DNA of 64,000 nt, from the NCBI RefSeq assembly GCF_024979315.1, contig NZ_JANLCK010000002.1:310001-374000 (forward strand), in the 5' to 3' direction. The position numbers were made by a program, and so were the translations under genes. Each line of letters begins with the position of its first letter. Within the stretch, counting starts at the first letter, position 1. The DNA is from Herbiconiux oxytropis (GTDB lineage Bacteria > Actinomycetota > Actinomycetes > Actinomycetales > Microbacteriaceae). The notes beneath the pieces are model-generated. The model made no database searches and had not been told where the DNA came from. It saw only the letters and a program-made list of their open reading frames with translations. Shown here one piece after another: positions 8,886 through 45,127 of the stretch.

Positions 8886-8926
8886 CGCGCTGCTGCTCTC
8901 CAGATGCGGTGCGCCTCGACAGAGGC

Positions 8927-9601
8927 TCAGGGCGCCGGGGTCGGCGGCAGCGAGAGGTCGACCCGGCGGAGGGCCACGAGGCGGAGGCCCGTGTCGCCCC
9001 AGTAGCAGGTCTGCAGCAGCAGGTCGGCCTCGAGACCCGCGGTGGCTGCCGCCGGGTCGTCGCCCGCCTGCGCGTCACGGCTGCCGGTGACCTGGTAGTC
9101 GCCGTCGAGCTCTGTGCCGGTGAGAGCCACGAGGTCGCCGGGCAGCAGATCGAGCACGACGTCGCCGCGGCAGTAATTGTGCGCCCCGACGATCGGCGCC
9201 ACGGCCCCGATGTCCATGCGCACCCACTGGCAGAGGTCGAGCTCGGCCTGGTGGCCGCGCGCGGTGACCCCGATCGCCACGCTCAGCGGGGCGCGGGGCT
9301 CGCCCGGTGCCGGTGCCGGTGCCGGCCCGGGCTCGGCGGCCGGCGCGACCGGGAGGTCTGCAGCGGGGGGCTCCGGCACCGTTCCGGCCGGAGCGCCGCC
9401 GGCCGGGGCGCCTGCGAGCACTCCGATCGAGTCGCCCGAGACGCTCGCCGCGGCCGCCGAGACCGGCACGGGGCGGGTGACGATCCCCCAGCCGGCCGCT
9501 CCGACGAGGAGGACCGCCACGAGCACGAGCGCGATCCGTCCGGGCAGCACGGCGCGGCGACGAGCTCGGTGATACGCGGCGAAGTCCGGATGCACGGCCA
9601 C
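8927..9601 (-). CDS. Membrane-anchored sortase-like protein (compact, divergent)
   Basis: 224 residues: cytoplasmic basic N-terminus, one membrane helix (about 20-42), a Pro/Ala linker (about 55-100), then a small extracellular domain. The domain resembles the C-terminal half of class E sortases: VGAHNYCRGD (candidate catalytic His), LLPGDLVAL (usual LxPGD turn), DYQVTGSRD, and DLLLQTC followed by LRLVAL, giving a TC...R pair like the catalytic Cys and Arg. The stretch before the His is much shorter than in known sortases and contains two more cysteines. It could be a minimal transpeptidase or an inactive relative. It is convergent with E2 and divergent from the zinc importer. Confidence 0.5.
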   Translation of the reverse strand: MAVHPDFAAYHRARRRAVLPGRIALVLVAVLLVGAAGWGIVTRPVPVSAAAASVSGDSIGVLAGAPAGGAPAGTVPEPPAADLPVAPAAEPGPAPAPAPGEPRAPLSVAIGVTARGHQAELDLCQWVRMDIGAVAPIVGAHNYCRGDVVLDLLPGDLVALTGTELDGDYQVTGSRDAQAGDDPAAATAGLEADLLLQTCYWGDTGLRLVALRRVDLSLPPTPAP

Positions 9602-9642
9602 AGCGTAGTGGGCACGAACAACGGCACGGTGACTCGGATTTG

Positions 9643-9665
9643 GTATTGAAAATCATTATCAATAC
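9643..9665. promoter_or_regulatory. Zur-type operator of the zinc importer operon
   Basis: A 23-base palindrome: arms GTATTGA and TCAATAC are perfect inverted repeats around an AT-rich core containing AAATCATTA. The TGAAAATCATTATCAA part matches the actinobacterial Zur box. Its right end overlaps the -10 hexamer of the downstream gene, so bound Zn-Zur would block RNA polymerase. The regulator itself is the fifth gene of the operon. Confidence 0.85.
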
Positions 9666-9668
9666 ACT
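9663..9668 (+). promoter_or_regulatory. -10 element TACACT, leaderless start
   Basis: TACACT, six bases, then GTG at 9675. The first three bases belong to the Zur palindrome. No ribosome-binding sequence lies between the operator and the start codon. Confidence 0.6.
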
Positions 9669-9674
9669 GGGCGA

Positions 9675-10727
9675 GTGAAGAAGAAGACGCTGGTCCTCCC
9701 CGTGCTCCTGTCCTCCACCGCGCTCGCTCTGGCCGGGTGCGCCTCGGGTGGAGGGGCGACGGGTGCGACCGCAGCCGCAGGAGAGCAGCTGCAGGTCGTC
9801 GCGACGACCACGCAGGTCGCCGACTTCACTAGGCAGGTGGCGGGCGACGCCGCGACCGTGACCCAGCTCATCCAGCCCAACCAGAGCGCGCACAGCTACG
9901 ACCCCTCCGCGGCCGATCTCGCGGCGCTCGGCTCGGCCGACGTGCTCGTGATCAACGGCGCGGGCCTCGAGGAGTGGCTCGACGACGCGATCTCGGCCTC
10001 GGGCTTCTCGGGCACCACGATCGACGCCTCGACCGGCATCGAGCTCTCCAGCGACGAGGCCGGCGACGGCCACGAGCACGCCGACGACGAGACCCATACC
10101 GACGAAGCGCACGCAGACGAGGCGCACGCGGAGGACGAGCACGCTCACGAGGGCGGCAACCCGCACATCTGGACCGACCCGCACCGCGCCGAGCAGATGG
10201 TCGCCACGATCGAGACCGGTCTCGCCGAGGCCGACTCCGCTGCCGCCGACGACTTCGAGGCCAATGCCACGGCTTACGAAGCGAAGCTCGCCGAGCTCGA
10301 CGAGTGGATCCACACCAACGTCGACACCGTGCCCGAGGCCGATCGCCTGCTGGTGTCGAACCACGACGCCTTCACCTACTTCGTCGACGCCTACGGCATC
10401 ACCTACGTCGGCTCCGTCATCCCGAGCTTCGACGACAACGCCGAGCCGAGCGCGGCCGAGATCGACGAGCTCGTGGCCGCCATCAAGGTCACCGGGGTCA
10501 AGGCCGTCTTCTCCGAGGCATCGATCTCGCCGAAGGCCGCCGACACCATCGCCGCCGAGGCGGGCGTCACGGTGTACTCGGGCGAGGAGGCGCTCTACGG
10601 CGACTCGCTCGGCCCCGAGGGCAGCGACGGAGCCACCTACCTGGCCTCGCAGATCCACAACGCGACCGTCATCCTCGAGTCGTGGGGAGTGACCCCCAGC
10701 GCGGTGCCTCGAGACCTGGAAGACTGA
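9675..10727 (+). CDS. znuA: Zinc ABC transporter substrate-binding lipoprotein (ZnuA/TroA family)
   Basis: 350 residues. A signal peptide ends in the lipobox LALAGC, so the mature protein is a lipid-anchored receptor. The family signature is a His/Asp-rich loop at about residues 132-161 (repeated EAHADEAHAEDEHAH), which captures zinc; the following NPHIWTDP and later SNHDAFTYF supply metal-binding His residues. The GTG start is fixed by the Zur operator and -10 box immediately upstream. It is the first gene of a five-gene operon with ATPase, two permeases and Zur; expression should rise in zinc starvation. Confidence 0.93.
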   Translation: MKKKTLVLPVLLSSTALALAGCASGGGATGATAAAGEQLQVVATTTQVADFTRQVAGDAATVTQLIQPNQSAHSYDPSAADLAALGSADVLVINGAGLEEWLDDAISASGFSGTTIDASTGIELSSDEAGDGHEHADDETHTDEAHADEAHAEDEHAHEGGNPHIWTDPHRAEQMVATIETGLAEADSAAADDFEANATAYEAKLAELDEWIHTNVDTVPEADRLLVSNHDAFTYFVDAYGITYVGSVIPSFDDNAEPSAAEIDELVAAIKVTGVKAVFSEASISPKAADTIAAEAGVTVYSGEEALYGDSLGPEGSDGATYLASQIHNATVILESWGVTPSAVPRDLED

Positions 10728-10731
10728 CCGG

Positions 10732-11445
10732 GTGACCGCTCGCGACTCCGCCGCTCCCTCCCCCGCACTCCGGGTGACGGGGGCGGCTTTCGCGTACGGT
10801 GCAGAGACCGCCCTCGAAGGCGTCACCCTCGAGCTCGCTCCCGGCGAGGCGGTCGCGCTGATCGGGCCGAACGGTGCCGGCAAGTCCACGCTCCTGAAGG
10901 GAGTGCTCGGCCAGGTGCCGCTCGTGGCGGGCACGATCGAGGTGGGCGGGCAGACCTCGAGGCAGCGCTACGCCTCCCGCATCGGCTACATGCCCCAGCA
11001 CGACGATCTCGATCCGCAGTTCCCGGTGACCCTCGAGCAGGTCGTCATGATGGGCCGCTACCGCTCCATCGGCTGGTTCCGGCTGCCGGGTGCGGCGGAT
11101 CGGGCCGCGGTGGCCGCTGCCCTCGCCGCGGTGGGCCTCACCGACCGCGCGAAGCGGCGCTTCGGAGACCTCTCGGGCGGCCAGCAGCAGCGCGGCATCC
11201 TCGCCCGCTCGATCGTGTCGGACCCGTCGCTGCTGCTGCTCGACGAGCCGTTCAACGGCCTCGACCAGGAGAACCGCGCGTCACTCGTGAGCACCCTCGC
11301 GGCCCTCAAGGCCGAGGGCGTGGCCGTGCTCGTCTCCACGCACGACTTCGACCTCGCCCAGCAGGTCTGCGATCGCGTGCTGCTGCTCGAGCACGGGCGG
11401 ATGGCCGTGGGCGAGCTCCCGCCCGCACCGCCGCGGACCCCCTGA
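10732..11445 (+). CDS. znuC: Zinc ABC transporter ATP-binding protein
   Basis: 237 residues. Walker [10 protein letters not shown] at about 45-53, ABC signature LSGGQQQR near 147, and Walker [13 protein letters not shown]. The sequence groups with manganese/zinc importer ATPases (MNTP/ZnuC type) with the FAYG...ALEGVTLEL start. It energises uptake through the permeases encoded next. The GTG start lies four bases after the receptor's stop. A short Pro-rich end replaces the longer tails of some homologs. Confidence 0.92.
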
Positions 11446-33769: not shown

Positions 33770-34695
33770 GCGCAGCGCGCCGCTTCACCGGTGATCCGTC
33801 GCTCTACGACCGGGTGGCCATGGAGACCTCCTCGATCGTCATCCGCCGCTACTCGACCTCGTTCGGGCTCGCCTCCCGGCTGCTCGCCCACCCCGTGCGC
33901 CAGGACGTGGAGAACATCTACGGCCTCGTGCGCCTGGCCGACGAGGTCGTCGACGGGGTCGCCGCCTCGGCCGACCTCGAGCCCGAGCGGATCGCCGCCT
34001 GCCTCGACGCTCTGGAGCAGGAGACGGCGGCCGCGCTCGACTGCGGCTACAGCACCAACCTCGTGGTGCACGCCTTCTGCCTCACGGCCCGCCGAGTGGG
34101 GATCGGCACCGACCTCGTCGAGCCGTTCTTCCGCTCGATGCGCGCCGACCTCTCGGCCACCACGCACACGCAGGAGTCGTTCGACGACTACGTCTACGGA
34201 TCGGCCGAGGTGGTGGGGCTGATGTGCCTGCAGGCGTTCCTGGCCGATCCCGCAGCCCGCAAGCGGAGCACGGCTCAGCGCGCCGCCCTCGTCGACGGCG
34301 CGCGGCACCTCGGTGCGGCCTTCCAGAAGATCAACTTCCTCCGCGATCTCGCGGCCGACTTCGGCACGCTCGGCCGGAGCTACTTCCCCGGCATCGACGT
34401 GAACACCTTCACCGAGGCCGAGAAGGCCAGGATCGTGGCCGACATCGACGAGGACCTCCGCATCGCGCGCACGTGCCTGCCGGGCCTCCCGCCCTCGAGC
34501 CGCCGTGCCGTCGCGCTCGCGCAGGGACTGTTCGAGGAGCTGACCGACCGGCTGCGCGCCACGCCCGCCGCCGTACTCGCCGAGACCCGCATCCGGGTTC
34601 CGAACCCCGTCAAGGCGAGAATAGCTGCAGGGGCGGCCCTCGGCCGGCTCCCCCGGCGGCGACCGGATGCGCATGAAGGAGACACGACCGAGTGA
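33766..34695 (+). CDS. crtB: Phytoene synthase
   Basis: 309 residues. CrtB joins two GGPP molecules to phytoene. The first Asp motif is RLADEVVD (DEXXD) and the second NFLRDLAADFGTLGRSYFPG, both complete, and YVYGSAEVVGLMC is the conserved central helix. The start overlaps the crtE stop and its stop overlaps the crtI GTG (GTGA), so crtE-crtB-crtI are translationally coupled. Confidence 0.95.
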   Translation: MSAARRFTGDPSLYDRVAMETSSIVIRRYSTSFGLASRLLAHPVRQDVENIYGLVRLADEVVDGVAASADLEPERIAACLDALEQETAAALDCGYSTNLVVHAFCLTARRVGIGTDLVEPFFRSMRADLSATTHTQESFDDYVYGSAEVVGLMCLQAFLADPAARKRSTAQRAALVDGARHLGAAFQKINFLRDLAADFGTLGRSYFPGIDVNTFTEAEKARIVADIDEDLRIARTCLPGLPPSSRRAVALAQGLFEELTDRLRATPAAVLAETRIRVPNPVKARIAAGAALGRLPRRRPDAHEGDTTE

Positions 34696-36515
34696 CCGCA
34701 GAGCACACGAACGACCACGACGACCTCGCCGGAGCCGAGCTCGGAGGCGAACACGGAGCCCCGGGCAGGGCGGTCGTGATCGGTGGCGGCATCAGCGGGC
34801 TCGCGACCGCCGCGCTGCTGGCGCGCGAGGGCCACACGGTGACGCTCCTGGAGAAGAACGAGGCGGTCGGCGGTCGCGCGGGCACCTGGGAGAAGGACGG
34901 CTTCCGCTTCGACACGGGCCCCTCCTGGTATCTCATGCCCGAGGTGTTCGACCACTTCTTCAAGCTCTTCGGCACGAGTGCCGCCGAGGAGCTCGACCTC
35001 GTGAAGCTCGACCCCGGCTACCGCGTGTACTCCGAGGGCGAGTTCGCGCCCATCGACCTCGCCTCGAACCGCGACGACAACCTCGACCTCTTCGAGTCGA
35101 TCGAGCCAGGGTCGGGAGTGCGCATGGCGGGCTACCTCGACTCGGCCGCCGAAACCTACGAGCTCGCCAAGGAGTACTTCCTGTACTCCACGTTCGAGAA
35201 GATCACCCCTCTCGCCACCGGCCCCGTGCTCAAGCGGCTGCCGCGGCTCGCCCGTCTCCTCACCGAACCGCTCGCACGCTTCGCGGGGCGTACGGTCCGC
35301 GATCCGCGGCTCGTCCAGGTGCTCGGCTACCCCGCCGTCTTCCTCGGCACCTCACCGTATTCCGCTCCGAGCATGTATCACCTCATGAGCCACCTCGACC
35401 TCACCGAGGGCGTGCTCTACCCCCGCGGCGGCTTCGCCTCGGTGATCGCGGCCATCGAGCGGATCGCGCGCGCCGAAGGCGTCGAGATCATCACGGGCGC
35501 CACCGTCACGCGCATCGTCACTGCGGTGGAGGGCGCCTCGGTGATGGTCCCCGCACCGGTCGACGTCTACGACTACGAGACCACGGAGTTCGACACCAAC
35601 GTGATCGACCGCGACGAGCTCGCTCGGGTGCTCGCGGGCGAGATGTCGACCGCCACCGAGCCCGAGCCGGTCGCCGAGATCCCCGCGGGCCAGAAGCCGC
35701 GCGCCGGTGGCGTGCACTACACCGACGGCGACGGGCGGGCGCACTCCGTCGACGGCTCCGTCGTGGTGTCGACCGCCGACCTCTGGCACACCGAGACGAC
35801 CATGCTCCTGCCCGAACTGCAGACCTACCCCGAGAGCTACTGGGCGAAGCGCACCCCGGGCCCGAGCGCCCTGCTCATCATGCTCGGCGTCGAAGGCGAC
35901 CTGCCCGAGCTCGAGCACCACACGCTCTTCTTCACCAAGGACTGGCGGGAGAACTTCGAGAAGATCTTCGGGCGCGGATCGGGCCCTGCGGCCACTCGGG
36001 GCACCTCGGTGCCTGCACCCGCGTCGCTCTACGTCTGCAAGCCGAGCGCGACCGACCACGACGTCGCGCCGGAGGGCCACGAGAACCTCTTCGTGCTCGT
36101 GCCGCTGCCCGCCGACCCCTCGATCGGCGCCGGCGGATTCGACGGCGGGGGAGACGCGCGCCTCGAGGAGCTCGCCGACACCGTGATCGAGCAGATCGCC
36201 TCGTGGGCCGGCATCGCGGATCTCGCCTCGCGCGTGGTGGTGCGGCGCACCGTGGGGCCCGCCGACTTCGTGGCCGACCTCAATTCGTGGGAGGGCACGG
36301 CCCTCGGGCCCGCGCACACCCTGCGGCAGAGCGCGATGTTCCGCTCGCGCAACCGCAGCACGAAGGTCGACGGCCTCTACTACGCCGGCGGCTCCACCAC
36401 GCCGGGCATCGGCCTGCCGATGTGCCTCATCAGCGCAGAGCTCGTGATCAAGCGCCTGCGCGGCGATACGAGCACCACCGCGCTGCCGGAGCCCCTCGCG
36501 CCGGCCGGCGGCTGA
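34692..36515 (+). CDS. crtI: Phytoene desaturase (lycopene-forming), with internal insertion
   Basis: 607 residues, longer than the usual 500-550. The FAD-binding Rossmann motif VVIGGGISGLATAALLAREGHTV lies near residues 26-48 after an Asp/His-rich N-terminal tail; the C-terminal substrate/FAD motif is YYAGGSTTPGIGLPMCLISAELV. Four desaturations convert phytoene to lycopene. About residues 283-336, between TAVEGA and AGGVHYTDGDG, an acidic stretch rich in Asp, Glu and Thr interrupts the usual alignment. The GTG start overlaps the crtB stop. Confidence 0.93.
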   Translation: MTAEHTNDHDDLAGAELGGEHGAPGRAVVIGGGISGLATAALLAREGHTVTLLEKNEAVGGRAGTWEKDGFRFDTGPSWYLMPEVFDHFFKLFGTSAAEELDLVKLDPGYRVYSEGEFAPIDLASNRDDNLDLFESIEPGSGVRMAGYLDSAAETYELAKEYFLYSTFEKITPLATGPVLKRLPRLARLLTEPLARFAGRTVRDPRLVQVLGYPAVFLGTSPYSAPSMYHLMSHLDLTEGVLYPRGGFASVIAAIERIARAEGVEIITGATVTRIVTAVEGASVMVPAPVDVYDYETTEFDTNVIDRDELARVLAGEMSTATEPEPVAEIPAGQKPRAGGVHYTDGDGRAHSVDGSVVVSTADLWHTETTMLLPELQTYPESYWAKRTPGPSALLIMLGVEGDLPELEHHTLFFTKDWRENFEKIFGRGSGPAATRGTSVPAPASLYVCKPSATDHDVAPEGHENLFVLVPLPADPSIGAGGFDGGGDARLEELADTVIEQIASWAGIADLASRVVVRRTVGPADFVADLNSWEGTALGPAHTLRQSAMFRSRNRSTKVDGLYYAGGSTTPGIGLPMCLISAELVIKRLRGDTSTTALPEPLAPAGG

Positions 36516-36519
36516 TCGC

Positions 36520-36843
36520 ATGGGCATCCTCTACCTGGTGGCCCTCGCGATCTCGATCACGGGCATGGTGGTGCTCGACCGCAGGTTCGGGCTCTTCTTC
36601 TGGCACCGGCCGGTGCGGGCCGCGATCGTGCTCGCCGTAGGGGTGCTGTTCTTCCTGGTCTGGGACCTGTTCGGCATCGGGCTCGGGATCTTCTTCAGGG
36701 GCGAGACGTCGTTCATGACCGGGCTGCAGGTCGCGCCGGAGCTGCCGGTGGAGGAGATCCTCTTCCTGACCCTGCTGTGCTACCTCACCATGAACGTGTT
36801 CCGCGGGGCGTCGCTCCTCATCGCACGGCGGGAGGCGGTGTGA
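36520..36843 (+). CDS. crtYe: C50 carotenoid cyclase subunit CrtYe
   Basis: 107 residues, three membrane helices, lycopene-cyclase domain of the CarR/CrtY heterodimer type. The conserved PELPVEEILFL motif carries the acidic residues of the active site. With CrtYf it cyclises the ends of the C50 flavuxanthin-type intermediate. The ring type (beta, gamma or epsilon) cannot be read from the sequence by eye. The ATG follows crtI by four bases and its stop overlaps the crtYf GTG. Confidence 0.88.
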   Translation: MGILYLVALAISITGMVVLDRRFGLFFWHRPVRAAIVLAVGVLFFLVWDLFGIGLGIFFRGETSFMTGLQVAPELPVEEILFLTLLCYLTMNVFRGASLLIARREAV

Positions 36844-37226
36844 GCTACTGGGGGCTGAACGCGGTGTTCCTCGCCGTGGTGGTCGTGGTCGTGGTGGCGG
36901 CGGTCGTGAGCCTCGTCGTGAGGGCGGGCGACGCATCCGCTCGTCGACGCCTGCTCGCGGCCGTGGGGGTCACGATGGCGGTGCTGCTCGTGATGACCGC
37001 GGTGTTCGACAACGTCATGATCGGGGTGGGGCTCGTGGGGTACGAGCCGTCGCTCATCTCGGGGGCGTTCGTGGGGATCGCGCCGCTCGAGGACTTCGCG
37101 TACGCGATCGCGGCGGTGCTGCTGCTGCCCTCGCTCTGGGTGCTGCTCGGGGGGCGGGACGGGGCCGGGTCGGCGTCGCCTGCGTCCCCTGCGTCGGCAG
37201 GTTCGCCGAAGGAGTCGGGCCGGTGA
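36840..37226 (+). CDS. crtYf: C50 carotenoid cyclase subunit CrtYf
   Basis: 128 residues, three to four membrane helices, second half of the heterodimeric cyclase. The motif GIAPLEDFAYAIAAVLLLP corresponds to the P-E/D-E/D site of the partner. The GTG at 36840 before SYWGLNAVFLA overlaps the crtYe stop; the frame is open 21 codons earlier but only inside crtYe. A Ser/Pro/Gly tail ends the protein. The stop overlaps the crtEb GTG. Confidence 0.88.
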   Translation: MSYWGLNAVFLAVVVVVVVAAVVSLVVRAGDASARRRLLAAVGVTMAVLLVMTAVFDNVMIGVGLVGYEPSLISGAFVGIAPLEDFAYAIAAVLLLPSLWVLLGGRDGAGSASPASPASAGSPKESGR

Positions 37227-38080
37227 TCCGCACGCTGCTGCTGTCGTCGCGTCCGCTCTCGTGGGTGAACACGGCGTTCCCGTTCGCGGCGGGCTATCTC
37301 ATGACCACGCGCGAGGTCGACCTCGTGTTCGTGCTCGGCACCCTCTACTTCCTCGTGCCCTACAACCTCGCGATGTACGGCATCAACGACGTCTTCGACT
37401 ACGAGTCCGACCTCCGCAACCCGCGCAAGGGCGGGGTCGAGGGCGCCGTGCTCGACCGCTCGTTCCACCGCATCACGCTGTGGGCGGTCGTGATCACGAA
37501 CGTGCCGTTCCTCGTGTTCCTGGTGGCGGTCGGATCGCCGCTGTCGTGGCTCGTGCTCGCCGTCTCGGTGTTCGCGGTCATCGCCTACAGCGCGCCGGGG
37601 CTGCGCTTCAAGGAGCGCCCCTTCGTCGACTCGCTCACCTCGAGCACGCACTTCGTGAGCCCCGCCGTCTACGGACTCGTGCTCGCGGGGGCCGTCTTCA
37701 CGCCGGGACTCTGGGCGGTGCTCGGGGCCTTCTTCCTCTGGGGGATCGCGAGCCACGCGTTCGGAGCGGTGCAGGACATCGTGGCCGACCGCGAAGGCGG
37801 GATCGGGTCGATCGCGACCGTCATCGGGGGGCGCGCGACCGTGCGGTTCGCGCTCGTGGCGTACCTCCTGGCGGGCGTGCTGCTGCTGTTCGCTCCGTGG
37901 CCTGGGTCTCTCGCGGCGGTGCTGGCCCTGCCGTACGCCGTGAGCATCCTGCCGTACGTGTCGGTGCGCGACGAGGATGCCGAGCGGGCGAACGCGGGGT
38001 GGAAGCGGTTCCTGTGGCTGAACTTCGTGGCCGGGTTCGGCGTGACGATGCTGCTGATCTGGACGTGGTCGCTGGGGTAG
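37223..38080 (+). CDS. crtEb: Lycopene elongase (UbiA prenyltransferase)
   Basis: 285 residues, about eight membrane helices, UbiA superfamily. The first Asp-rich motif is NDVFDYESD and the second is VQDIVADREGG, both needed to bind DMAPP with magnesium. CrtEb adds a C5 unit at each end of lycopene to give C50 products such as flavuxanthin. Its place after crtYe-crtYf completes the route to a cyclic C50 carotenoid such as decaprenoxanthin, sarcinaxanthin or C.p.450. Confidence 0.92.
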   Translation: MIRTLLLSSRPLSWVNTAFPFAAGYLMTTREVDLVFVLGTLYFLVPYNLAMYGINDVFDYESDLRNPRKGGVEGAVLDRSFHRITLWAVVITNVPFLVFLVAVGSPLSWLVLAVSVFAVIAYSAPGLRFKERPFVDSLTSSTHFVSPAVYGLVLAGAVFTPGLWAVLGAFFLWGIASHAFGAVQDIVADREGGIGSIATVIGGRATVRFALVAYLLAGVLLLFAPWPGSLAAVLALPYAVSILPYVSVRDEDAERANAGWKRFLWLNFVAGFGVTMLLIWTWSLG

Positions 38081-38180: not shown

Positions 38181-39527
38181 ATGAAGCGACCCCGCGTTCT
38201 GGTCGCCGCCGCGGCGGCGTGCGCCGTGGTCGCGCTCGCGGCGGCGGGGGTGTCGGTGTGGGCGCTCTCGGCGGGGAGCGGTGCGCCGCTCGGCCGGGCC
38301 GGTGTCGTCGCCGACTCCGGCGCATCCGGTGACGGGAACGCCCTCACCCGTGAGGCCTGGGCGACCGGGAGCACCGGGATCTACAGCTTCGGGCACACGA
38401 TCGACAGCGCGGTGCCGAGCCCGGATGCGCCGCTGGACGCCTCGATGCGGCTGCCGTTCTCGTTGAGCGTGCCGGCGCAGGCGTTCCGGGTGCACGTGCG
38501 CAACTGGTCGTTCGACGACGAGCGGGAGTACGACTCGCCTGTGACGCTGACCGGGATGCACGTGGGGGCGCACGCGCTCGATCCGAGCACCGCGACCGGC
38601 CAGACGGGTGCCTTCGAGGGGACCCCGGTGGGGATCGTCGGAACGGTGAACCTCGCGCGCGGCGGGTTCGTGAGCGAATGGATCGAGCCGTCGCGCATGG
38701 CCCTGGATGCTTCGGTGGACTCACTGCTGGCGATCGGCTTCACCGCCCCGGCCGGGGCACGGCTCGCCACCTCGCAGGGGTTGTCGTGGACCGATGTGGG
38801 GGAGGGGGCGGCGGCGCTCGCCGGAGGGCCGGGCGTGCGCGGGGCCCCGCAGTACCTCAGCTACTTCGATGTGTGGATCGAGTACGGGTTCGGGGGATCC
38901 GACGCCGATCCGCCGCCTGTGCTCGTGAGCGTCGGCCATTCGCTCAACGCGCCGGGGTCGTTCGCGACGGAGGCGTTCCCCACGCGCGGCGAGTCGACCG
39001 CGTGGCCGCAGCAGTGGGCGCTGTCGCACGGGGGAGTGGCGGTGTCGCTCGCGGCACCGGGGGCGGAGGCCTCCGCGTTCGCGCCGTCGGCGGCGAAGTG
39101 GGAGGCGTTCTCCGACGTCTCGCCCGACATCGTGACCATCTGGACCGCGTCGAACGACATCGCCAGGGGGCATCCACTCGCCGAGATCGAGCGGGACTGG
39201 TCGGAGGTCGTGGCGGGGGTCGTGGCGCGGTGGCCGGATGCTGCCGTCTTCGCGCTGACCGAGCCGCCGCGAGGTCTCACCGGGGCCGAGGAGCAGACGC
39301 GGCTGGCCTGGAACGAGTGGCTCTCGCTCGTGCCTCCCGGGGTGGACGGGGTGCTCGATGCCGACGCGGTGCTGCGGGATCCGGGGGCTCGCTCGCTGCT
39401 GCGTGCCGACGTGGATGCCGATGGGGTGCACTTCTCGGCGCGGGGGCACGCGCTCGTGGCGGAGCTCGTGCCGGTGCCGGTGCCTCCGCCGGTGCCTGTG
39501 CCGGTGCCGACTGCCGCTTCGCGCTGA
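38181..39527 (+). CDS. Secreted SGNH/GDSL-type hydrolase
   Basis: 448 residues. A signal peptide or anchor (about 1-32) precedes an N-terminal beta-rich domain (about 45-235) and a C-terminal SGNH domain. Block I reads VSVGHSLNAPG, with GHS in place of GDS; the serine is near residue 254. Block III reads WTASNDIARG (Asn retained) and block V reads DGVHFSARGH with Asp and His. The catalytic Ser-Asp-His set therefore looks complete despite the altered GDS. Such enzymes deacylate surface polymers or lipids. It ends in a Pro/Val repeat tail. Confidence 0.78.
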   Translation: MKRPRVLVAAAAACAVVALAAAGVSVWALSAGSGAPLGRAGVVADSGASGDGNALTREAWATGSTGIYSFGHTIDSAVPSPDAPLDASMRLPFSLSVPAQAFRVHVRNWSFDDEREYDSPVTLTGMHVGAHALDPSTATGQTGAFEGTPVGIVGTVNLARGGFVSEWIEPSRMALDASVDSLLAIGFTAPAGARLATSQGLSWTDVGEGAAALAGGPGVRGAPQYLSYFDVWIEYGFGGSDADPPPVLVSVGHSLNAPGSFATEAFPTRGESTAWPQQWALSHGGVAVSLAAPGAEASAFAPSAAKWEAFSDVSPDIVTIWTASNDIARGHPLAEIERDWSEVVAGVVARWPDAAVFALTEPPRGLTGAEEQTRLAWNEWLSLVPPGVDGVLDADAVLRDPGARSLLRADVDADGVHFSARGHALVAELVPVPVPPPVPVPVPTAASR

Positions 39528-39648
39528 CGACGGAGTTTCGGCCATCTCGGCGGGAACGACGGATGGTGCGCGCGATCAAGGGACAGTTCGCCGTCGTCCC
39601 GGCCGGATTGCTCCCCGGGGCGGCGGTGGGGCGAGAGGGCAGGGTGAT

Positions 39649-39677
39649 GCGGGGCGCACCAGGTGGGTGCGCCCCGC
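39649..39677. terminator. Strong hairpin between convergent genes
   Basis: A perfect 12-pair stem, GCGGGGCGCACC with GGTGCGCCCCGC, around a five-base loop. It lies 31 bases beyond the stop of the minus-strand chaplin-like gene and 122 bases beyond the SGNH stop, so it could end transcription from both sides. No T tract follows. Confidence 0.7.
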
Positions 39678-39707
39678 AGTCCTTCTCAAGTTCCTGCTCG
39701 GTGTCGG

Positions 39708-41660
39708 TCAGCGGATGCCGGTGGCCTGACGTCGAGCGAGGAGGAGGGTGCTGATCCCGGCGAGGATGAGCAGGAGGAGTCCGCCGATCAGGGGGAGGGG
39801 GTTGCCTCCCGTGAGGGCGAGGGTTCCGCTGTCGGATCCGGTGCTTCCGCCGGCGACGGGGGTGGTGCTGCCGCCGGAGGGGGTGCTGGTGCCGGGGGTG
39901 GTGTCAACCGGGGTCACCGGGGTGACGGGGGTCGAGGGAACCGTCGGGTCCGTCGGGTCGACCGGGTTGGTCGGAGTCGTCGGGTCCGTGGGGTCGGTCG
40001 GGTCCGTGGGGTCGACCGGATCGGTCGGGTCCGTGGGGTCCGTCGGGTCCGTGGGGTCCGTCGGGTCCGTCGGGTCGACCGGGTCGGTCGGGTCGGTCGG
40101 GTCCGTCGGGTCCACCGGGTCGGTCGGGTCGATGGTGCTGTCGGTGGTGGTGCAGTCACCGATCACGCAGACGCCGTTGCCGCCCACGATAACGGGGAGG
40201 TCGACGACGGGGATGATCTGGTTCCCGCCCCCGATGCTCCCTTCGCCGTCGGTGGTCGGGTCGCCGCCGGTGCCACCGGGGGCGGTGACGATGGTCGATC
40301 CGCCGGTCTCGGAGTCGCCGATGCCGGAGACGCCGTTGCCGCCGATGATCACCGGGAGGGTGATGATCGGGGTGACCTGGTTGCCGCCGGCGACGCTGTC
40401 GCTGCCGTCGGTGGTGGCGCCGTCACCGGTGCCGGTGCCGTTGCCGGCGTCGGTGGTGATGTCGGATCCGTCGGTGCTGGAGTCTCCGATGCCGGAGACG
40501 CCGTTGCCGCCGATGATCACCGGGAGGGTGATGATCGGGGTGACCTGGTTGCCGCCGGCGACGCTGTCGCTGCCGTCGGTGGTGGCGCCGTCACCGGTGC
40601 CGGTGCCGCCGCCGTTGCCGGCGTCGGTGGTGATGTCGGATCCGTCGGTGCTGGAGTCTCCGATGACGGAGATGCCGTTGCCGCCGATGGTGACCGGGAG
40701 GGTGACGACGGGGTTGACCTGGTTGCCGCCCGCGACGCCGTCCTCGCCGGTGGTGGTGCCACCCGTGGATCCGGTGCCCGCGGTGCCGGTGCCGGGGGTG
40801 CCGGCGTCGGTGGTGATGTCGGAGCCGTCGGACTCGGAGTCGCCGATCACGCTGATGGCGTTGCCGCCGATCGTGACCGGGGCACTCACGTCGATCGGGA
40901 GCTGGTTGCCCCCGGCGACGCCGTCCTCACCGGACGTGCTGCCGGTGGCGGGAGCACCCGATCCGGTCGTGGTGCCGTTCTCCGAACCGGACGAGCTCGA
41001 GTCGCCGATCACCGAGACACCGTTGCCGCCGATCGTGATGGGGGCGTCGATGTCGATGGGGAGCTGGTTGCCCCCGGCGACGCTGTCCTCACCGGTGGTC
41101 GAGCCGCCGGTGCTGCCGGTGCCCGTTCCGGTGCCTGCGGTGTTGTCGGATCCGGTGGACTCGGAGTCGCCGATCACGCTGATGCCGTTGCCGCCGATCG
41201 TGATCGGGATGTCGACATCGACCACGCCCTGGTTGCCACCGAGCAGCGAGTCGCTGCCGTCGGTGGTCGGAGCCGGTGCCTCGGGCTCTGCCGGTGCCGG
41301 CTCCGGGGCCGGGGCCGACGGGTTGGGCACGATGACCGGACCGGGCTCGTACACGGGCTCAGCCGGGGCAGGCTCCGGTGCGGGCGCCTCCTCGACCGGC
41401 GCCTCCACCACGGGGGCGGCCGGCTCGGGGGCAGGTGCAACGGGTGCGACCGAGCTGCCGTCGGAGGTGCTGTCTCCGATGACGGAGATGCCGTTGCCGC
41501 CGATGTCGATCGGGAGGTCGATCTGGATCAGGGCCTGGTTTCCGGAGGCCGCGCCGTCGGAGCCGTCCGTGCCGGCTGCGTTCGCGACTCCCGCCCCGAC
41601 GGCGCAGAGGCCACCGGTGATGAGGACTGTGAGCAGCCCTCTCGAGACGTACTTGTTCAT
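39708..41660 (-). CDS. Giant chaplin-like repeat surface protein with LAXTG-type anchor
   Basis: 650 residues. A signal peptide (about 1-28, ending GVANAA) is followed by eight repeats with the core PITIGGNGISVIGDS preceded by GNQ and alternating hydrophobic residues. This is the chaplin pattern (GN..V.VPV...GN.V.VIG). Linkers are Ser/Thr/Gly/Asp-rich; a Pro/Glu/Ala segment separates repeats 1 and 2. Repeats lack the chaplin cysteines except the last, which has two (VCVIGDC). A (PTD/PVD)n tract leads to the sorting signal LALTG, a membrane helix and ARRQ tail, as in Streptomyces long chaplins. It is probably an amyloid-like, hydrophobic, cell-wall-attached coat protein. Confidence 0.75.
   Translation of the reverse strand: MNKYVSRGLLTVLITGGLCAVGAGVANAAGTDGSDGAASGNQALIQIDLPIDIGGNGISVIGDSTSDGSSVAPVAPAPEPAAPVVEAPVEEAPAPEPAPAEPVYEPGPVIVPNPSAPAPEPAPAEPEAPAPTTDGSDSLLGGNQGVVDVDIPITIGGNGISVIGDSESTGSDNTAGTGTGTGSTGGSTTGEDSVAGGNQLPIDIDAPITIGGNGVSVIGDSSSSGSENGTTTGSGAPATGSTSGEDGVAGGNQLPIDVSAPVTIGGNAISVIGDSESDGSDITTDAGTPGTGTAGTGSTGGTTTGEDGVAGGNQVNPVVTLPVTIGGNGISVIGDSSTDGSDITTDAGNGGGTGTGDGATTDGSDSVAGGNQVTPIITLPVIIGGNGVSGIGDSSTDGSDITTDAGNGTGTGDGATTDGSDSVAGGNQVTPIITLPVIIGGNGVSGIGDSETGGSTIVTAPGGTGGDPTTDGEGSIGGGNQIIPVVDLPVIVGGNGVCVIGDCTTTDSTIDPTDPVDPTDPTDPTDPVDPTDPTDPTDPTDPTDPTDPVDPTDPTDPTDPTTPTNPVDPTDPTVPSTPVTPVTPVDTTPGTSTPSGGSTTPVAGGSTGSDSGTLALTGGNPLPLIGGLLLLILAGISTLLLARRQATGIR
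39940..40130 (-). repeat. Pro-Thr-Asp repeat tract (wall-spanning stalk)
   Basis: Nine-base units coding PTD or PVD repeat about twenty times inside the chaplin-like gene, just before the LALTG anchor. Such Pro-rich stalks carry surface proteins through the cell wall. The near-identical DNA units make this a site for length change by slippage. Confidence 0.85.
40321..40656 (-). repeat. Two near-identical 168-base coding repeats
   Basis: The segment from 40321 recurs from 40489 with very few differences, a period of 56 codons, coding two adjacent chaplin-like units. The other six units are clearly more diverged, so this pair is a recent duplication. Confidence 0.8.
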
Positions 41661-41782
41661 GAGGATGTTCTCCAAACTGGTGAGTAGGTGTGCGCCGAAG
41701 GCCCGCGGAGATCGCGGGGGCGCGAGGGTCCGTCTCCCTGCCACCACGACCGGAGGGCGGTCGGGGCAGGGTCGGAACCTAC

Positions 41783-42922
41783 TCAGTCAGGAGAGGTGTC
41801 GGTGTCGTGCACCGGCGACGACGGGAGGTCGTCGTCGGCCGCGATACCGGAGAGGATGACGCTCACCGCGGGCCCGAGGCCCGCAGCGGAGAACTCGGCG
41901 CCCACGGGGGTGCCCGCGCCCGCCGCACCGGCGCTGCCGGCTCCCGAGGACGACGACGGCAGAGGCGCGACGTCGCCGCCGAGCCCGCCCGGTGAGAACG
42001 GGGAACTGCCGCCACCGGGGGCCGAAGGTGTTCCGGAGGCACCCGGTGCAGTCGCAGCTGGCGCTGCCGTGGGAGCATCGATGGACGTGCCGGCGGGGGC
42101 CGGCGCGGAGGTGGAGAAAAGCGCGAGGGACGCGGCCAGGGCCGATCCGCTGATCGCCGGAGACGCGACGACCGAGCCGCCGGCGAGGCCCGTAGGAAGG
42201 GCGGAGAAACCGGGGAGATCGGCGTCGATGCCGAGGCCGGAGCCATCGGTGCCGGGGGTGCCGGGGTCTCCGGGAACGACCGGGATGCTCGGGAATCCGG
42301 GGATCTGGCCGCCGTCGGCGGGAGCATCCACGACCGGGGCGACGACCCCGTCGACCGCCGGGAGAACAGCTCCGGAGACACCCTCGAGGGCGCCGTCCAC
42401 GGTGCCGGCGACCGGTGCGGTGACGGTGCCGACCGGCGCCGACCCGACGACTTCGGGAACGACCGGCAGGGCCGCGACGACTCCGTCGACGGCCTCGGCG
42501 ACCGGCGTCACCACCGACTCGACGGGCGCAGAATCCACCACGTCGGAGACGGCCTGGGTGACCTCGGGGACGACCTCCACGACCTCGGCCACGGGAGCCT
42601 CGACCGGCTCAGGGAGCGCTTCGACGACGGGCTCGACGACCGGCGTCACGACGTTCTCCGTGACGCCCGACACGACCCGGTCGACGACGTCCGTGACCGA
42701 CCCGAGCGCGGGATCCACCGACGACACCGTCGACCCGACGCCCTCGAGCACGCCGCCGAGCAGCGGATCGCCCTCGGCGGCAGAGGCCGGCGAACCACCG
42801 AAGACGGCGCCCGCCACCAGGAGCCCGGCGGCGACGCCGACGGCTCCCAGGCCGATGCGCAGGAAACGGCCCGAGCGCGTGCGAGCGGGTTCGATCTGGT
42901 CGTCGTTCGTCATTGCGTCCAC
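41783..42922 (-). CDS. Secreted Val/Pro-rich protein, unknown
   Basis: 379 residues. A basic N-terminus and signal helix (about 18-47, ending PASAA) lead to a region (about 50-210) of short repeats such as VVTPVVEPVVEALPEPV, rich in Val, Pro and Glu, then a Gly/Ser/Ala/Pro low-complexity C-terminal half. No known domain or LPXTG motif was seen. The GTG at 42922 is chosen because a full AAGGAGGTGA ribosome-binding site lies at the right distance. The gene precedes the chaplin-like gene by 122 bases on the same strand, so the two may act together at the surface. Confidence 0.65.
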   Translation of the reverse strand: MDAMTNDDQIEPARTRSGRFLRIGLGAVGVAAGLLVAGAVFGGSPASAAEGDPLLGGVLEGVGSTVSSVDPALGSVTDVVDRVVSGVTENVVTPVVEPVVEALPEPVEAPVAEVVEVVPEVTQAVSDVVDSAPVESVVTPVAEAVDGVVAALPVVPEVVGSAPVGTVTAPVAGTVDGALEGVSGAVLPAVDGVVAPVVDAPADGGQIPGFPSIPVVPGDPGTPGTDGSGLGIDADLPGFSALPTGLAGGSVVASPAISGSALAASLALFSTSAPAPAGTSIDAPTAAPAATAPGASGTPSAPGGGSSPFSPGGLGGDVAPLPSSSSGAGSAGAAGAGTPVGAEFSAAGLGPAVSVILSGIAADDDLPSSPVHDTDTSPD

Positions 42923-43014
42923 GGGGCGTCACCTCCTTCTTCGGATAGTTACGTCCACACCACTCCTCGACACCTGTCGCGTCAAGGCCCGCGCCTCCAC
43001 GTTCCGCGGAGCTT

Positions 43015-43044
43015 CAGTAGTCCCTCAGTAGTTTGCTCAGTAGT
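43015..43044. promoter_or_regulatory. Three phased CAGTAGT direct repeats
   Basis: CAGTAGT occurs at 43015, 43026 and 43038, spaced 11 and 12 bases, about one helical turn. The last also forms CTCA-GTAG-TGAG. They lie 93-122 bases upstream of the secreted-protein gene start and could be a regulator binding array. Confidence 0.5.
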
Positions 43045-43102
43045 GAGAACCCACTCGCCTGACGCACTGGAGGTGGGCCACCATCGGCATGAAGCGGGCA
43101 CG

Positions 43103-43137
43103 AAAAAGAGGAGCCACCCCGAAGGGCGACTCCTCTT
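43103..43137 (-). terminator. Rho-independent terminator of the sigma factor gene
   Basis: On the minus strand AAGAGGAG pairs with CTCCTCTT around an inner CGCCC/GGGGTGG stem with a TTCG tip, and the stem runs directly into TTTTT. It lies 14 bases after the sigma gene stop. This is the most classical terminator in the window. Confidence 0.9.
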
Positions 43138-43150
43138 AATACTCGTGCGA

Positions 43151-44125
43151 CTACGCGATCAGGTAGTCGTGCAGCGACTCGTCGCGGAGCATGCCGAGCG
43201 CACGACGCTGGATCTGTCGGGCCCGCTCACGCGAGACCCCGAGCACGTCGCCGATCTGGTCGAACGACATGGGGTCTTCACCATCGAGGCCGAACCGCAT
43301 GCACACGACGCGCGCCTCGCGCGGAGGCAGGGTGGCGAGCGCCACCGACAGGTCATGGTGCTGCAGCGACGCCGCAGCGGCATCGAAGGGCTGGGCCTGC
43401 GTGGTGTCCTCGATCAGGTCGCCGAGCTCGGCGTCGTCGTCTCCGACGGGCGTGTGGATCGACACCGTGTCGCGACCGTGGCGGATGAGCTCCTGCACCT
43501 TCTGCGGCGGCAGGTCGACGGCGGAGGCCACCTCGTCGATCGTGGCCTCGCGGCCGAGCTCGATCATGAGCCGGCGCTGCATGCGCGTGATCGCCGAGAT
43601 CTTCTCCGACGTGTGCACGGGGATGCGGATGATGCGCCCGCTGTCGGCGAGGGCGCGGTTGATCGACTGCTTGATCCACCACGAGCCGTAGGTGGAGAAC
43701 TTGAAGCCGGCCTGGTAGTCGAACTTCTCGACCGCACGCACGAGGCCGATGTTGCCCTCCTGGATCAGGTCGAGGAAGGGCAGCCCGCGCTCGAGGTAGC
43801 GCTTGGCGATGGAGACGACGAGACGGAGGTTGGCCTGGATGAGCTGGCGCTTGGCAGCCTGTCCATCGCGGGCGAGCCACTGCAGCTCGCGCTTGAGCGT
43901 GGCATCCATGAGGGGGGTCTCCGACAGCTTCTCGTCGGCGAGCACGCCCACCTCGATGCGCCGGCCGAGGTCGACCTCGTCTTCGGCGGTGAGCAGGGGG
44001 GTGCGGCCGATCTGGCGGAGGTAGTCCTTCACCGGGTCCTCGGAGGCGCCGCGGATGTCGGTCAGACGCGCCTGGGGCTCGGCGTCGTCGATCTCAGGGG
44101 CTGTCGTGACTGCTGTGCGTGACAT
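43151..44125 (-). CDS. RNA polymerase sigma factor, sigma-70 group 2 (SigB-like)
   Basis: 324 residues. Region 1.2 ([21 protein letters not shown]), region 2 with [20 protein letters not shown] and [20 protein letters not shown], region 3, and region 4.2 with [23 protein letters not shown] are all present. It lacks the long acidic N-terminus of the primary sigma HrdB/SigA, so it is a group 2 factor like corynebacterial SigB, used in stationary phase and stress. The ATG at 44125 has GGAG upstream; the earlier open frame is not sigma-like. Confidence 0.88.
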
Positions 44126-44238
44126 GTCATCTCCGTATCTGCATCGAATGCTGCACTGGTGTGAAACCGTTCGACCATCAGGTCGTATCGGCAGGTTAGC
44201 CTCGCAACCGACGTCCCCCCTAATGGGGGTTCGGGGGG

Positions 44239-44356
44239 TTGACAAGGGACGTCTCGACCCACTAGTACCTAGTTCATCTAACATCTTGTCAGCCTTACTC
44301 CTTCGATTTCAAGAGATTCTTCCCGGCGATCTTCCCCGGATTCCCGCGGATAGACT
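44239..44356 (+). promoter_or_regulatory. Candidate promoters of the copper-linked genes
   Basis: TTGACA at 44239-44244 is a perfect -35 hexamer; 18 bases later stands TAGTAC, a weak -10. TAGACT at 44351-44356, 18 bases before the ATG at 44375, is a better -10 candidate and is followed by GGGGAA as ribosome-binding site. The region between is unusually AT-rich for this genome. Confidence 0.4.
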
Positions 44357-44374
44357 GGGTTCGGGGAACGACGG

Positions 44375-45127
44375 ATGGCAGGGCGAATGAGCGACAGGAT
44401 CACGCGGGTCGCCCGCGGACTCGTCGCCGCGACCGTCGCCGTCTTCGCTGCGGCCTTCTCCCACGTCGTCGCCGGGGGAGGTGCGCCGGGAGCGCCGGGC
44501 TTCGCCCTCGCCGCCGCCTTCGCGGTGCTCGTCTGCGTCGCGCTCGCGGGTCGACGGCTCCGGATGCTCACTCTCGCGGTGTCGATCCTGAGCAGCCAGT
44601 TCGTCTTCCACCTGCTGTTCGAGGTGGGCGGGGGAGCGGCCGCGTCGGCATCGGCACCCGGCGGCCTCCACGCGGCTCACGCGGGGCATGCAGGCCTCGA
44701 CGGCTACGGCGCCCTCGCCGCTCAGCTGGGCGCGTCGGTGGCGGATGCGTCGGGTGCGGCCGGCCACGGGCATCCGGCGTTCGTGATGTGGGCCTCACAC
44801 GCCGTGGCCGCCATCGTCACGATCGTCGCCCTGCGCCGCGGCGAGCAGACGATCGCGCGGTTGCGCGAGCTCGGCCGCACGACGCCGGGCACGCCCGGCA
44901 TCGGCCTCCTCCGTCCTGGCCGCGCCCTCGCTCGCGCCTTCGCCGCCGTGATCGGTCGCGCTCGCATCGCCGGGCTCGCGCAGAGCCCCGCCCGCCCGGC
45001 CGGACACGTGCGGCCCATGGTGGCCGAGGCCCCGGACCTCCTCCGAGACCTGCTGGTGGTGGCGGGGAGCCTTCGCCACCGCGGCCCGCCGCGCTCACCG
45101 CGCGCGCTTCTCGCCCACCCCGCCTGA
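44375..45127 (+). CDS. Hypothetical membrane protein, His-rich, in copper gene group
   Basis: 250 residues with three to four membrane helices in the first 160 residues and a basic cytoplasmic C-terminal third. An external loop reads HAAHAGHAG and later GHGHPAFV, giving a His cluster suited to metal binding. The ATG at 44375 has GGGGAA six bases upstream; an in-frame ATG at 44387 (MSDRITRVARG) is an alternative. No named family was recognised. It precedes YcnI and CopC genes, so a part in copper handling is likely by context. Confidence 0.6.
   Translation: MAGRMSDRITRVARGLVAATVAVFAAAFSHVVAGGGAPGAPGFALAAAFAVLVCVALAGRRLRMLTLAVSILSSQFVFHLLFEVGGGAAASASAPGGLHAAHAGHAGLDGYGALAAQLGASVADASGAAGHGHPAFVMWASHAVAAIVTIVALRRGEQTIARLRELGRTTPGTPGIGLLRPGRALARAFAAVIGRARIAGLAQSPARPAGHVRPMVAEAPDLLRDLLVVAGSLRHRGPPRSPRALLAHPA

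Follow-up and report, generated by a model that had tools for sequence, protein, structure and literature searches.

A predicted two-gene surface-coat operon of Herbiconiux oxytropis: a tandem chaplin-like anchored protein, its upstream partner and a conserved RNA fold between them

The window analysed here is a stretch of 64,000 nucleotides of the Herbiconiux oxytropis genome (contig NZ_JANLCK010000002.1, positions 310,001 to 374,000), and coordinates count from its first letter. On its minus strand a gene for a secreted V/P/A-rich protein, the partner, is followed by a structured RNA and then by a gene for a wall-anchored protein with a tandem array of chaplin-like units (Table 1). The length of the partner, 379 aa, is counted from a putative GTG start at 42922; the ATG of the array ORF is at 41660-41658. 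A sigma factor gene adjoins the locus.

Table 1. Features of the array locus (window coordinates)
Feature	Coordinates	Strand	Basis or remark
Partner gene, secreted V/P/A-rich protein, tail ...DDDLPSSPVHDTDTSPD	41783..42922	-	recurs in 62/65 array loci
Conserved partner C-terminal tail, last 18 codons, ends -SPD	41786..41839	-	
Three-way-junction RNA between partner and array genes	41681..41785	-	fold z -5.26
Tandem chaplin-like wall-anchored surface protein	39708..41660	-	650 aa, stop included; translation and PF03777
Signal peptide region, aa 1-29	41574..41660	-	sequence reading; Herbiconiux orthologue N-termini alike
Chaplin-like unit 1, aa 28-68 (41-aa window)	41457..41579	-	
Chaplin-like unit 2, aa 130-170 (41-aa window)	41151..41273	-	
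Chaplin-like unit 3, aa 185-225 (41-aa window)	40986..41108	-	
Chaplin-like unit 4, aa 239-279 (41-aa window)	40824..40946	-	
Chaplin-like unit 5, aa 300-340 (41-aa window)	40641..40763	-	
Chaplin-like unit 6, aa 358-398 (41-aa window)	40467..40589	-	
Chaplin-like unit 7, aa 414-454 (41-aa window)	40299..40421	-	
Chaplin-like unit 8, aa 467-507, with C498-x4-C503 pair	40140..40262	-	
168-bp repeat copy A, unit 7 block	40276..40443	-	
168-bp repeat copy B, unit 6 block	40444..40611	-	
DPT/PTD-rich stalk	39941..40130	-	9-nt tandem period, 21.1 copies
LALTG sorting motif, aa 614-618	39807..39821	-	sequence reading

Each unit of the array contains a GN-Q motif (starting at aa 39, 141, 196, 250, 311, 369, 425 and 478) and, exactly 15 residues after it, the motif GGN-x-[VI]-[SC]-[VG]-IGD. 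These eight motif pairs bear out the eight chaplin-like units of the first-pass annotation. Its PTD stalk and LALTG anchor are likewise in place: the stalk is the 9-nt tandem array of Table 1, and the sorting motif is followed by a hydrophobic stretch and then an RR tail, to 39711. Linkers of 12-61 aa separate the 41-aa unit windows. The two 168-bp blocks that had been described as near-identical share 154 of 168 bases without gaps; their units 6 and 7 are 96% identical in nucleotides and 95% in amino acids over the 41-aa windows, and all remaining unit pairs lie at 59-86% nucleotide identity. The only cysteines of the array protein are C19, in the signal peptide, C498 and C503, so that the last unit alone carries two, at the non-standard positions already pointed out. 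The mature chain of 589 aa contains no lysine, no arginine and 82 acidic residues (net charge -82, GRAVY -0.22); the Lys/Arg count covers nine of nine Herbiconiux rows.

At the level of sequence, the array protein is homologous to the chaplin domain, as had been proposed: PF03777 (ChpA-C) scores 59.3 bits (E 3.2e-16, cut-off 21), and five stretches pass individually. The match is partial. The best stretch spans positions 4-45 of the 57 in the profile, whereas Streptomyces-type matches extend to position 53-57; beyond position 45, where the chaplin domain ends in a hydrophobic segment, the array has a polar Asp/Ser/Thr stretch. The domain has been described as three GN motifs 12-13 residues apart (PMC13251363, in the part consulted); the first two are found in all eight units, with 13 residues between them, and the third in none. 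No unit has the canonical cysteines at their usual places, the two of unit 8 lying elsewhere; in the accessible parts of the sources ChpE (PMC3079736) and the second domain of ChpB (PMC13251363) are also described as lacking them. In hydropathy the 24-aa cores (GRAVY 0.50-1.25) are comparable to the corresponding part of three Streptomyces chaplins (0.75-0.90), which the 39-aa units are not (0.01-0.61 against 0.71-0.82). An HMM grown from these units gives each of them 52-66 bits, which is circular and shows only their evenness. Two of three GN motifs, no canonical cysteines and a chain free of lysine and arginine are the grounds for the label chaplin-like.

The protein has the marks of a class E sortase substrate, namely an LAXTG-type motif, a hydrophobic stretch and a basic tail in a genome with a class E sortase gene (NF033747, 230.1 bits, cut-off 160). 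Besides it, the genome encodes a class C sortase and gives two further sortase matches. Chaplin-like units occur nowhere else in it at E<=0.001, all eight matches lying inside the array ORF.

The number of units differs within the genus: eight whole orthologues, the one in the window included, have 7, 7, 7, 7, 7, 8, 10 and 10; left out of the counts are genomes G014, where two contig ends each carry part of the gene, and G008, where it is fragmented. This range fits the earlier suggestion that the array is still changing. Nine of ten Herbiconiux orthologues retain the C-x4-C pair in their last unit; it is not a quirk of this strain. Tandem arrays of predicted chaplin-like units are common in actinobacteria; at least three unit matches were found in 59 of 199 family genomes, and 37 of the 38 array regions examined (out of 53, the window's own included) match PF03777. 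The chaplin-type VCGN cysteine pair occurs in Geodermatophilus arrays and in the seven f35 loci; in Occultella and at locus L131 cysteines sit one residue off the chaplin place. The polyanionic character is not general, since cysteine-free f6 arrays (e.g., L130 and L133) are nearly uncharged. A tblastn search found no plasmid copies of the array or the partner protein.

Neither NCBIfam nor, above cut-off, Pfam has a family that matches the partner protein, whose AlphaFold model is poor (pTM 0.29). The protein is recognized by its ending and its place. An ORF ending in -PD (60 loci) or -PG (2 loci) lies directly upstream in 62 of 65 array loci (53 and 9 from two sets); the three arrays that lack it, L201-L203, indicate that the partner is not obligatory. 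In 16 Herbiconiux genomes both genes are present in the same 10 and neither in the other 6. Family genomes divide into 48 with both, 11 with the array only, 5 with the partner only and 135 with neither (Fisher p 1.5e-29), and on inspection all 11 array-only genomes have an upstream -PD ORF. At other loci the partner precedes an anchored repeat protein with a different body; it is present in Nocardiopsis-like loci (L239, L241, L243 and L247), and at L204 it stands ahead of a single-unit ORF. Among 16 further loci inspected, no -PD/-PG ORF was found at L238, L246, L248, L249 and L250, which are probably low-complexity matches; the counts do not include loci outside these 16, such as L242, L244 and L245. 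The upstream ORF ends in -PG at L237 and in -PD at L251. The conserved C-terminus of the partner suggests a specific docking or sorting step, and its recurrence makes it a genetic handle on the system.

The RNA between the two genes is a conserved fold with covariation. Its closing stem P1 starts at the TGA of the partner and pairs 41785-41777 with 41689-41681. A covariance model (R1), built from the gaps of three relatives and excluding the window, finds the window RNA at 24.9 bits (E 0.0035) and matches 16 other loci at the right place, window included (E<=0.03). On the structure-fitted alignment both bases change in 24 of 25 pairs, and 94.8% of cells are paired in the native arrangement vs 65.8% after shuffling. 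The refined model R2 matches 44 of 64 Micrococcales-type loci; it falls short of E<=0.1 at the gap in the other 20 and in the seven f35 loci, and the four Nocardiopsis-like loci named above give no match to the RNA model.

Counts of predicted folds agree. With "closed" and "three-way" defined after the window and Herbiconiux gaps had been viewed, 33 of 42 gaps close a stem at the stop codon (10.1 expected from shuffles) and 27 form a three-way junction (1.4 expected); in 21 further loci 18 are closed (5.7 expected) and 11 three-way (0.6 expected). When arms are re-paired between species, none of 5000 trials reaches the native mean stem length (47 loci), and the same holds without the stop-codon bases. 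Folding energy alone was rejected as proof of an RNA: the sequence that follows the stop of the array gene is stably folded too (median z -3.35), yet it has no three-way junction in 47 loci (1.2 expected) and 13 closed stems (12.2 expected). At 855 other mechanically chosen long-ORF stops, 3.2% are three-way and 21.9% closed. A broader pairing window separates less well (15 of 49 with stems of at least 7, vs 9% between species). MAFFT gap alignments, which are not structure-aware, were left out of the counts. Rfam has nothing near gathering score in window positions 39400-44500 or in positions 5850-6060 of locus L015; its lines at E 0.34-2.7, microRNA models and narK, lie far below gathering and were discarded. 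Two features speak against stop-codon readthrough or selenocysteine insertion at the P1 stop, which was likewise discarded: with frames judged by eye, the codon there differs between loci, TGA or TAG (e.g., L131, L133 and L054), and so does the gap length. A search of the locus gave no promoter- or terminator-like site, a terminator having been considered and dismissed, so a shared transcript is inferred from the spacing. The next ribosome-binding site lies outside the conserved helices. It is unusual for a structured RNA to be placed so that its three-way junction, covarying across many genera, takes in a stop codon, and the arrangement offers a well-defined system in which to study how operons fix protein ratios.

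How the units are arranged in space bears on two readings, neither of which we regard as more than tentative. If the array were a true chaplin-type functional amyloid, many chains would form cross-beta fibrils and a hydrophobic cell surface, as the long and short chaplins of Streptomyces do together. Membership of PF03777 and the comparable hydropathy of the 24-aa cores speak for this, as does the dispensability of the cysteines (ChpE without them, and reduced chaplins, still fibrillate according to the part of PMC3079736 consulted). It is made doubtful by the lower hydrophobicity of the 39-aa units and the charge of the mature chain, by the absence of a second unit-bearing gene from the genome, and by the missing third GN and LLNPAFGN-like segment. 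The units might instead stack within one chain as a beta-solenoid or beta-rich adhesive stalk, a non-amyloid rod for adhesion or spacing, a reading to which we give about the same modest weight. The best of five AlphaFold models of the array is moderate (pLDDT 67.6, pTM 0.60) and shows short strands with corners at LP, GN and GD; the (nearly) invariant G, P, N and D residues at these predicted corners, the tandem array on an anchored stalk and the differing unit number between species are what a solenoid would lead one to expect. The other four models (48.6-55.8) do not reproduce the best one, the linkers are ill-suited to a continuous solenoid, and no PDB structure matches the array model significantly in Foldseek (best E 0.39), so that solenoid identity was not accepted on that ground.

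For the RNA and the gene pair, too, other accounts were weighed. That the junction regulates by sensing a ligand or protein, and is not an element for stability or spacing, appears unlikely: one-sided bulges in P2 and P3 of a three-way junction in the model consensus, and the fixed position at the stop codon, would suit a sensor, but loop and junction sequences vary, with few invariant columns (the alignment takes no account of structure), no conserved helix includes the next ribosome-binding site, and no Rfam relative appears. Least probable of all is that partner and array are neighbours through inheritance only, with no joint function. The adjacent sigma factor gene, with no evident role, is likewise kept in Herbiconiux loci, and arrays L201-L203 do without the partner; against this, the pair persists over several families while the outer neighbour changes, both genes are absent together from six of 16 genus genomes, and the partner keeps its upstream place at loci whose anchored protein is built differently. 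The sigma factor itself was set aside as regulator, being retained, among 52 loci, only in the eight Herbiconiux loci and at L144.

The account that we consider rather probable is a two-gene surface-coat operon in which the RNA determines how much anchored protein is made for a given amount of partner. The first gene would supply a secreted protein with a -SPD tail; the product of the second would be a fibre, its chaplin-like units in tandem on a DPT stalk, which the class E sortase would link to peptidoglycan. Each unit may fold into a compact beta element that turns at P, GN and GD, and hydrophobic edges could hold units together within a chain and between chains; one covalent chain would replace the many separate short chaplins of Streptomyces. 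The partner may co-assemble with the fibre or escort it, perhaps via the -SPD tail. The three-way junction most likely separates the two messages and sets the ratio of anchored protein to partner. The acidic, Lys/Arg-free chain points to a hydrated, negatively charged coat, with which adhesion or biofilm formation would fit better than water repellence; the charge, the overall GRAVY and the polar stretch after profile position 45 are some evidence against surface hydrophobicity, a role that the first-pass annotation had entertained. That annotation left the partner gene and the intercistronic RNA unremarked. We judge it an even question whether the whole constitutes an undescribed actinobacterial surface-coat module. 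Such a module would combine a secreted -SPD-tailed partner with a sortase-anchored repeat protein of exchangeable type, in most cases tandem chaplin-like and in some built of other repeats; the intervening RNA, with the stop codon of the first gene inside its closing helix, would belong to a new class and control how much anchored protein is produced.

Chaplins have been studied as hydrophobic coats of aerial hyphae, structures that Herbiconiux is not known to form. Repeat-built functional amyloids such as CsgA and FapC also have tandem beta units in one chain and accessory genes; no sequence relation between them and the array is known, and FapC (9u4u) appears in Foldseek without significance (E 0.47, prob 0.01). 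With the Streptomyces long chaplins ChpA-C the array protein shares secretion, anchoring by a sortase signal and chaplin-domain homology. It differs in having eight units and LALTG rather than the two chaplin domains and sorting signal that define a long chaplin, no canonical cysteines, two of three GN motifs and an acidic chain. At 11 chaplin loci of three Streptomyces-type genomes, no -PD/-PG ORF lies directly upstream and the RNA model has no match at E<=0.1. ChpE likewise lacks the two cysteines and is still a chaplin and fibril-forming (PMC3079736, in the part consulted), but it is short, single-domain and unanchored. CwpA and CwpB of Actinoplanes missouriensis, which depend on a class E sortase for their wall anchoring and contain disordered regions and beta clusters, are compared with long chaplins in the consulted part of PMC13251363; they are said there to have no chaplin domain, and their functions were tested, whereas the array is known from its sequence. 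Chaplin-like genes outside the streptomycetes have been reported in Stackebrandtia, Thermobifida, Streptosporangium, Nocardiopsis and Arthrobacter chlorophenolicus, with no arrays, partner or RNA described in the part of that source consulted (PMC4255298). The same part suggests attachment as a possibly older role of chaplin-like proteins, and the polyanionic, cysteine-free, covalently tandem version in Herbiconiux can serve as a test of whether attachment or water repellence was the chaplin domain's first role.

The array in the window belongs to a module in which a secreted partner recurs and a covarying RNA encloses a stop codon; this module is more interesting than first reported. The first-pass annotation had described a chaplin-like protein of eight units, with a pair of near-identical 168-bp copies, a stalk, an LALTG anchor and two late cysteines. 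The gene lies where it was placed; spacing is exact in all eight units, each with GN-Q and, 15 residues on, GGN-x-[VI]-[SC]-[VG]-IGD; the two copies share 154 of 168 bases, and the stalk, anchor and cysteines are all as described. The proposed profile check, run on the protein, returns Pfam ChpA-C at 59.3 bits (cut-off 21), and an NCBIfam search of the protein gives no match. The finding on the array is real and partly right: judged by its sequence, the protein is a divergent chaplin variant that departs from several domain criteria. Two long open reading frames lie opposite it on the plus strand (39748-41859, 703 aa; 39663-41687, 674 aa), probably a by-product of the codon composition of the repeats. 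Beyond the GDSL hydrolase, phytoene desaturase-like and UbiA-type genes (34692-38080) look, by eye, like a carotenoid cluster. Some other Herbiconiux loci, L056 among them (8220-11220), hold about 3 kb more than the window between array and hydrolase.

Features of the array locus, in window coordinates
Feature	Position	Strand	Basis or description
GDSL hydrolase	38181-39527		Pfam
Array ORF	39708-41660	minus	translation, 650 aa
Three-way-junction RNA	41681-41785	minus	fold and covariation
Partner gene	41783-42922	minus	directly upstream of array; V/P/A-rich protein, signal-type N-terminus

The distribution of such arrays was surveyed with an alignment (A1) of 22 units, run on family, order and class genome draws that overlap; the group labels are by inference (f1, Microbacteriaceae; f18, probably Micrococcaceae; f35, Streptosporangiaceae-like, including the Nocardiopsis-like g199; g184, Streptomyces). 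Units are matched in 59 of 199 family genomes, every one with at least three units, in 26 of 248 order-draw genomes (5 of the 26 with a single unit) and in 65 of 296 class-draw genomes, including Streptomyces-type genomes in which the units are scattered across several ordinary chaplin genes. The number of units in fully read arrays ranges from 3 to 13. Within Herbiconiux the gene is present in 10 of 16 genomes, nine found through Pfam and one (G008) by protein search; in the sister species G014 the array is interrupted at contig ends (L055 end, L086 end), as expected when assembling across repeats.

The f1 and f18 arrays read have no cysteines except in the last unit or units of Herbiconiux and of L144, and in one unit of L151. 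The seven f35 arrays L123-L129 have two per unit, unit 1 excepted; the anchored arrays of 3-4 units in L201-L203 (f35, Nocardiopsis-like) have two in every unit; Geodermatophilus arrays are mixed; and in Occultella and L131 (f6) the first cysteine is shifted one residue later relative to chaplins. The last unit carries C-x4-C in nine of ten Herbiconiux orthologues (the window's own, G001, G002, G005, G007, G008, G009, G013 and G014), the pair being absent from that of G010; L144, of another genus, has it in its last two units. By sequence comparison this motif is conserved and may form a disulphide adjoining the stalk.

The partner's product in the window ends in the tail DDDLPSSPVHDTDTSPD, with the conserved -SPD terminus; its best Pfam score, 9.8 bits, falls short of the cut-off of 26.3, NCBIfam has no match, and four further partners fall into no Pfam family. 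AlphaFold places helices at 61-193 and leaves the second half mostly disordered, at low confidence (pTM 0.29). An ORF of at least 150 aa stops just before the array in 53 of 53 loci (52 and the window), ending -PD in 51 and -PG in two (L035, L136). The 52 loci contain 1,937 mechanically called ORFs of at least 150 aa, of which 54 have the -PD ending, and 50 of these 54 are the partners. The -PD ORF is also present in nine of nine further family genomes where the array alone was found at first. All sets pooled, 62 of 65 arrays have the partner upstream; the arrays of L201-L203 have no -PD/-PG partner there, nor does any such ORF lie directly upstream of 11 chaplin loci in three Streptomyces-type genomes. 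At L204 a -PD/-PG ORF precedes a single-unit ORF. Within the genus, the 10 genomes (of 16) with the array are also those with the partner, and across family genomes 48 have both, 11 the array only, 5 the partner only and 135 neither (p 1.5e-29, counted per genome, kinship ignored). The f35 partners of L123-L129 end DDPSFSPD, and in L123, L124, L125, L126 and L129 an ORF resembling, by eye, an M20-type peptidase precedes the partner.

In the window, the gap between partner and array folds far better than its shuffles (z -5.26), into two hairpins enclosed by a closing stem, P1, that runs from the partner's TGA (41785) to 20 nt before the array ATG. Both ends of the gap are defined in 49 of 53 loci (L035, L131, L142 and L143 were dropped, the start codon not being clear), and the seven f35 loci, with gaps of 193-263 nt, were left out of the fold counts. 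The fold closes at the stop codon in 33 of 42 gaps and forms a three-way junction in 27 of 42 (10.1 and 1.4 expected from dinucleotide shuffles); 21 fresh loci give 18 closed (5.7 expected) and 11 three-way (0.6 expected), and the six of these 21 that are Micrococcales-type with a non-chaplin body (L213-L216, L233, L240) are three-way without exception. Control regions after the array stop form the junction in 0 of 47, and 855 other stops in 3.2%. When 5' arms are re-dealt among species (47 loci: 34 left from the 42 once near-duplicates were removed, plus 13 of the 21), none of 5,000 permutations reaches the native mean stem (5.32 vs 3.85), and again none of 5,000 does so without the stop-codon bases (4.13 vs 3.34). 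In closed folds the stem pairs follow the stop type: G2-C and A3-U for TGA, A2-U and G3-C for TAG.

Covariance models recover the same element. R1, built from three Herbiconiux gaps and searched against both strands of 85 sources (844,014 bases), gives 20 matches at E<=0.03: its own three, 16 gaps of other loci, including the window's at 24.9 bits (E 0.0035), and the opposite strand of one such gap. R2, refined on 21 matches and run on 92 sources (881,532 bases), gives 45 at E<=0.1, of which 44 (21 training, 23 new) begin within 4 bases of a partner stop codon, the sole match elsewhere being L020 7566-7664. It matches 44 of 64 Micrococcales-type loci (f1, f6, f18, named Microbacteriaceae and Occultella; L217, at a contig end, is counted) and, at the same threshold, none of the seven f35 arrays, 11 Streptomyces-type loci, Geodermatophilus or Nocardiopsis-like loci. 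Both bases are replaced in at least one sequence for 24 of the 25 pairs in an alignment fitted to the structure; 94.8% of its cells pair (65.8% shuffled) and covariation is 0.644 (0.168 shuffled, 0.03-0.09 slid). Rfam has no family for the region.

What follows the partner varies. In four of the five partner-only genomes (L213-L216) the next gene encodes another repeat-bearing protein whose signal peptide is similar and whose end is of LAXTG/LPXTG type, and two of these proteins have collagen-repeat Pfam matches; in the fifth, L217, the partner lies at a contig end. L233 and L240 likewise have non-chaplin anchored bodies. Among Nocardiopsis-like loci, the gene after the partner encodes an anchored single-unit chaplin in L239, L241 and L247 and an anchored non-chaplin protein in L243. 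The partner is thus the less variable of the two, and the surface-protein body seems exchangeable, with partner and RNA fold standing ahead of quite different repeats in L213-L216, L233 and L240.

The mature array protein has 64 Asp, 18 Glu and neither Lys nor Arg; these two are absent from nine of nine Herbiconiux array rows and number at most six in f1 rows. In the seven f35 arrays, Lys+Arg total 13-44 and Asp+Glu 16-26, six of the seven being net positive. By charge count several cysteine-free f6 arrays (L130, L133) are almost uncharged, so that acidity, as read from composition, is a trait of f1 and most f18 arrays and not of every cysteine-free array. AlphaFold models the array, at moderate confidence, with corners at conserved P, GN and GD, and the model has no significant match in the PDB. 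Wall attachment is likely, because an anchor and a class E sortase gene are present. The product would be a beta-rich coat fibre anchored to the wall and accompanied by the secreted partner, and the predicted coat is more likely to be hydrated and adhesive than to repel water. A ribosome finishing at the partner stop would sit on the 5' arm of P1, and the array ribosome-binding site lies outside the conserved helices; on the simplest reading, the RNA would separate the partner and array messages and set their ratio.

Searches of the open-access literature on chaplins, the Herbiconiux surface and intercistronic or structured RNAs found no paper with a title or abstract on chaplin-like arrays, partner or RNA; within those searches, Pfam, NCBIfam and Rfam, the module is undescribed. 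Three papers offer comparisons. One describes hydrophobic wall proteins of Actinoplanes that depend on a class E sortase and act in development (PMC13251363), and another states that cysteines are not needed for chaplin fibres in vitro (PMC3079736). In Streptomyces venezuelae, according to the third, loss of RNase III or J raises chaplin and rodlin messages, an effect placed in the indirect BldD regulon; for the RNA of the window, this RNase effect on chaplin messages is a loose parallel only (PMC12096830).
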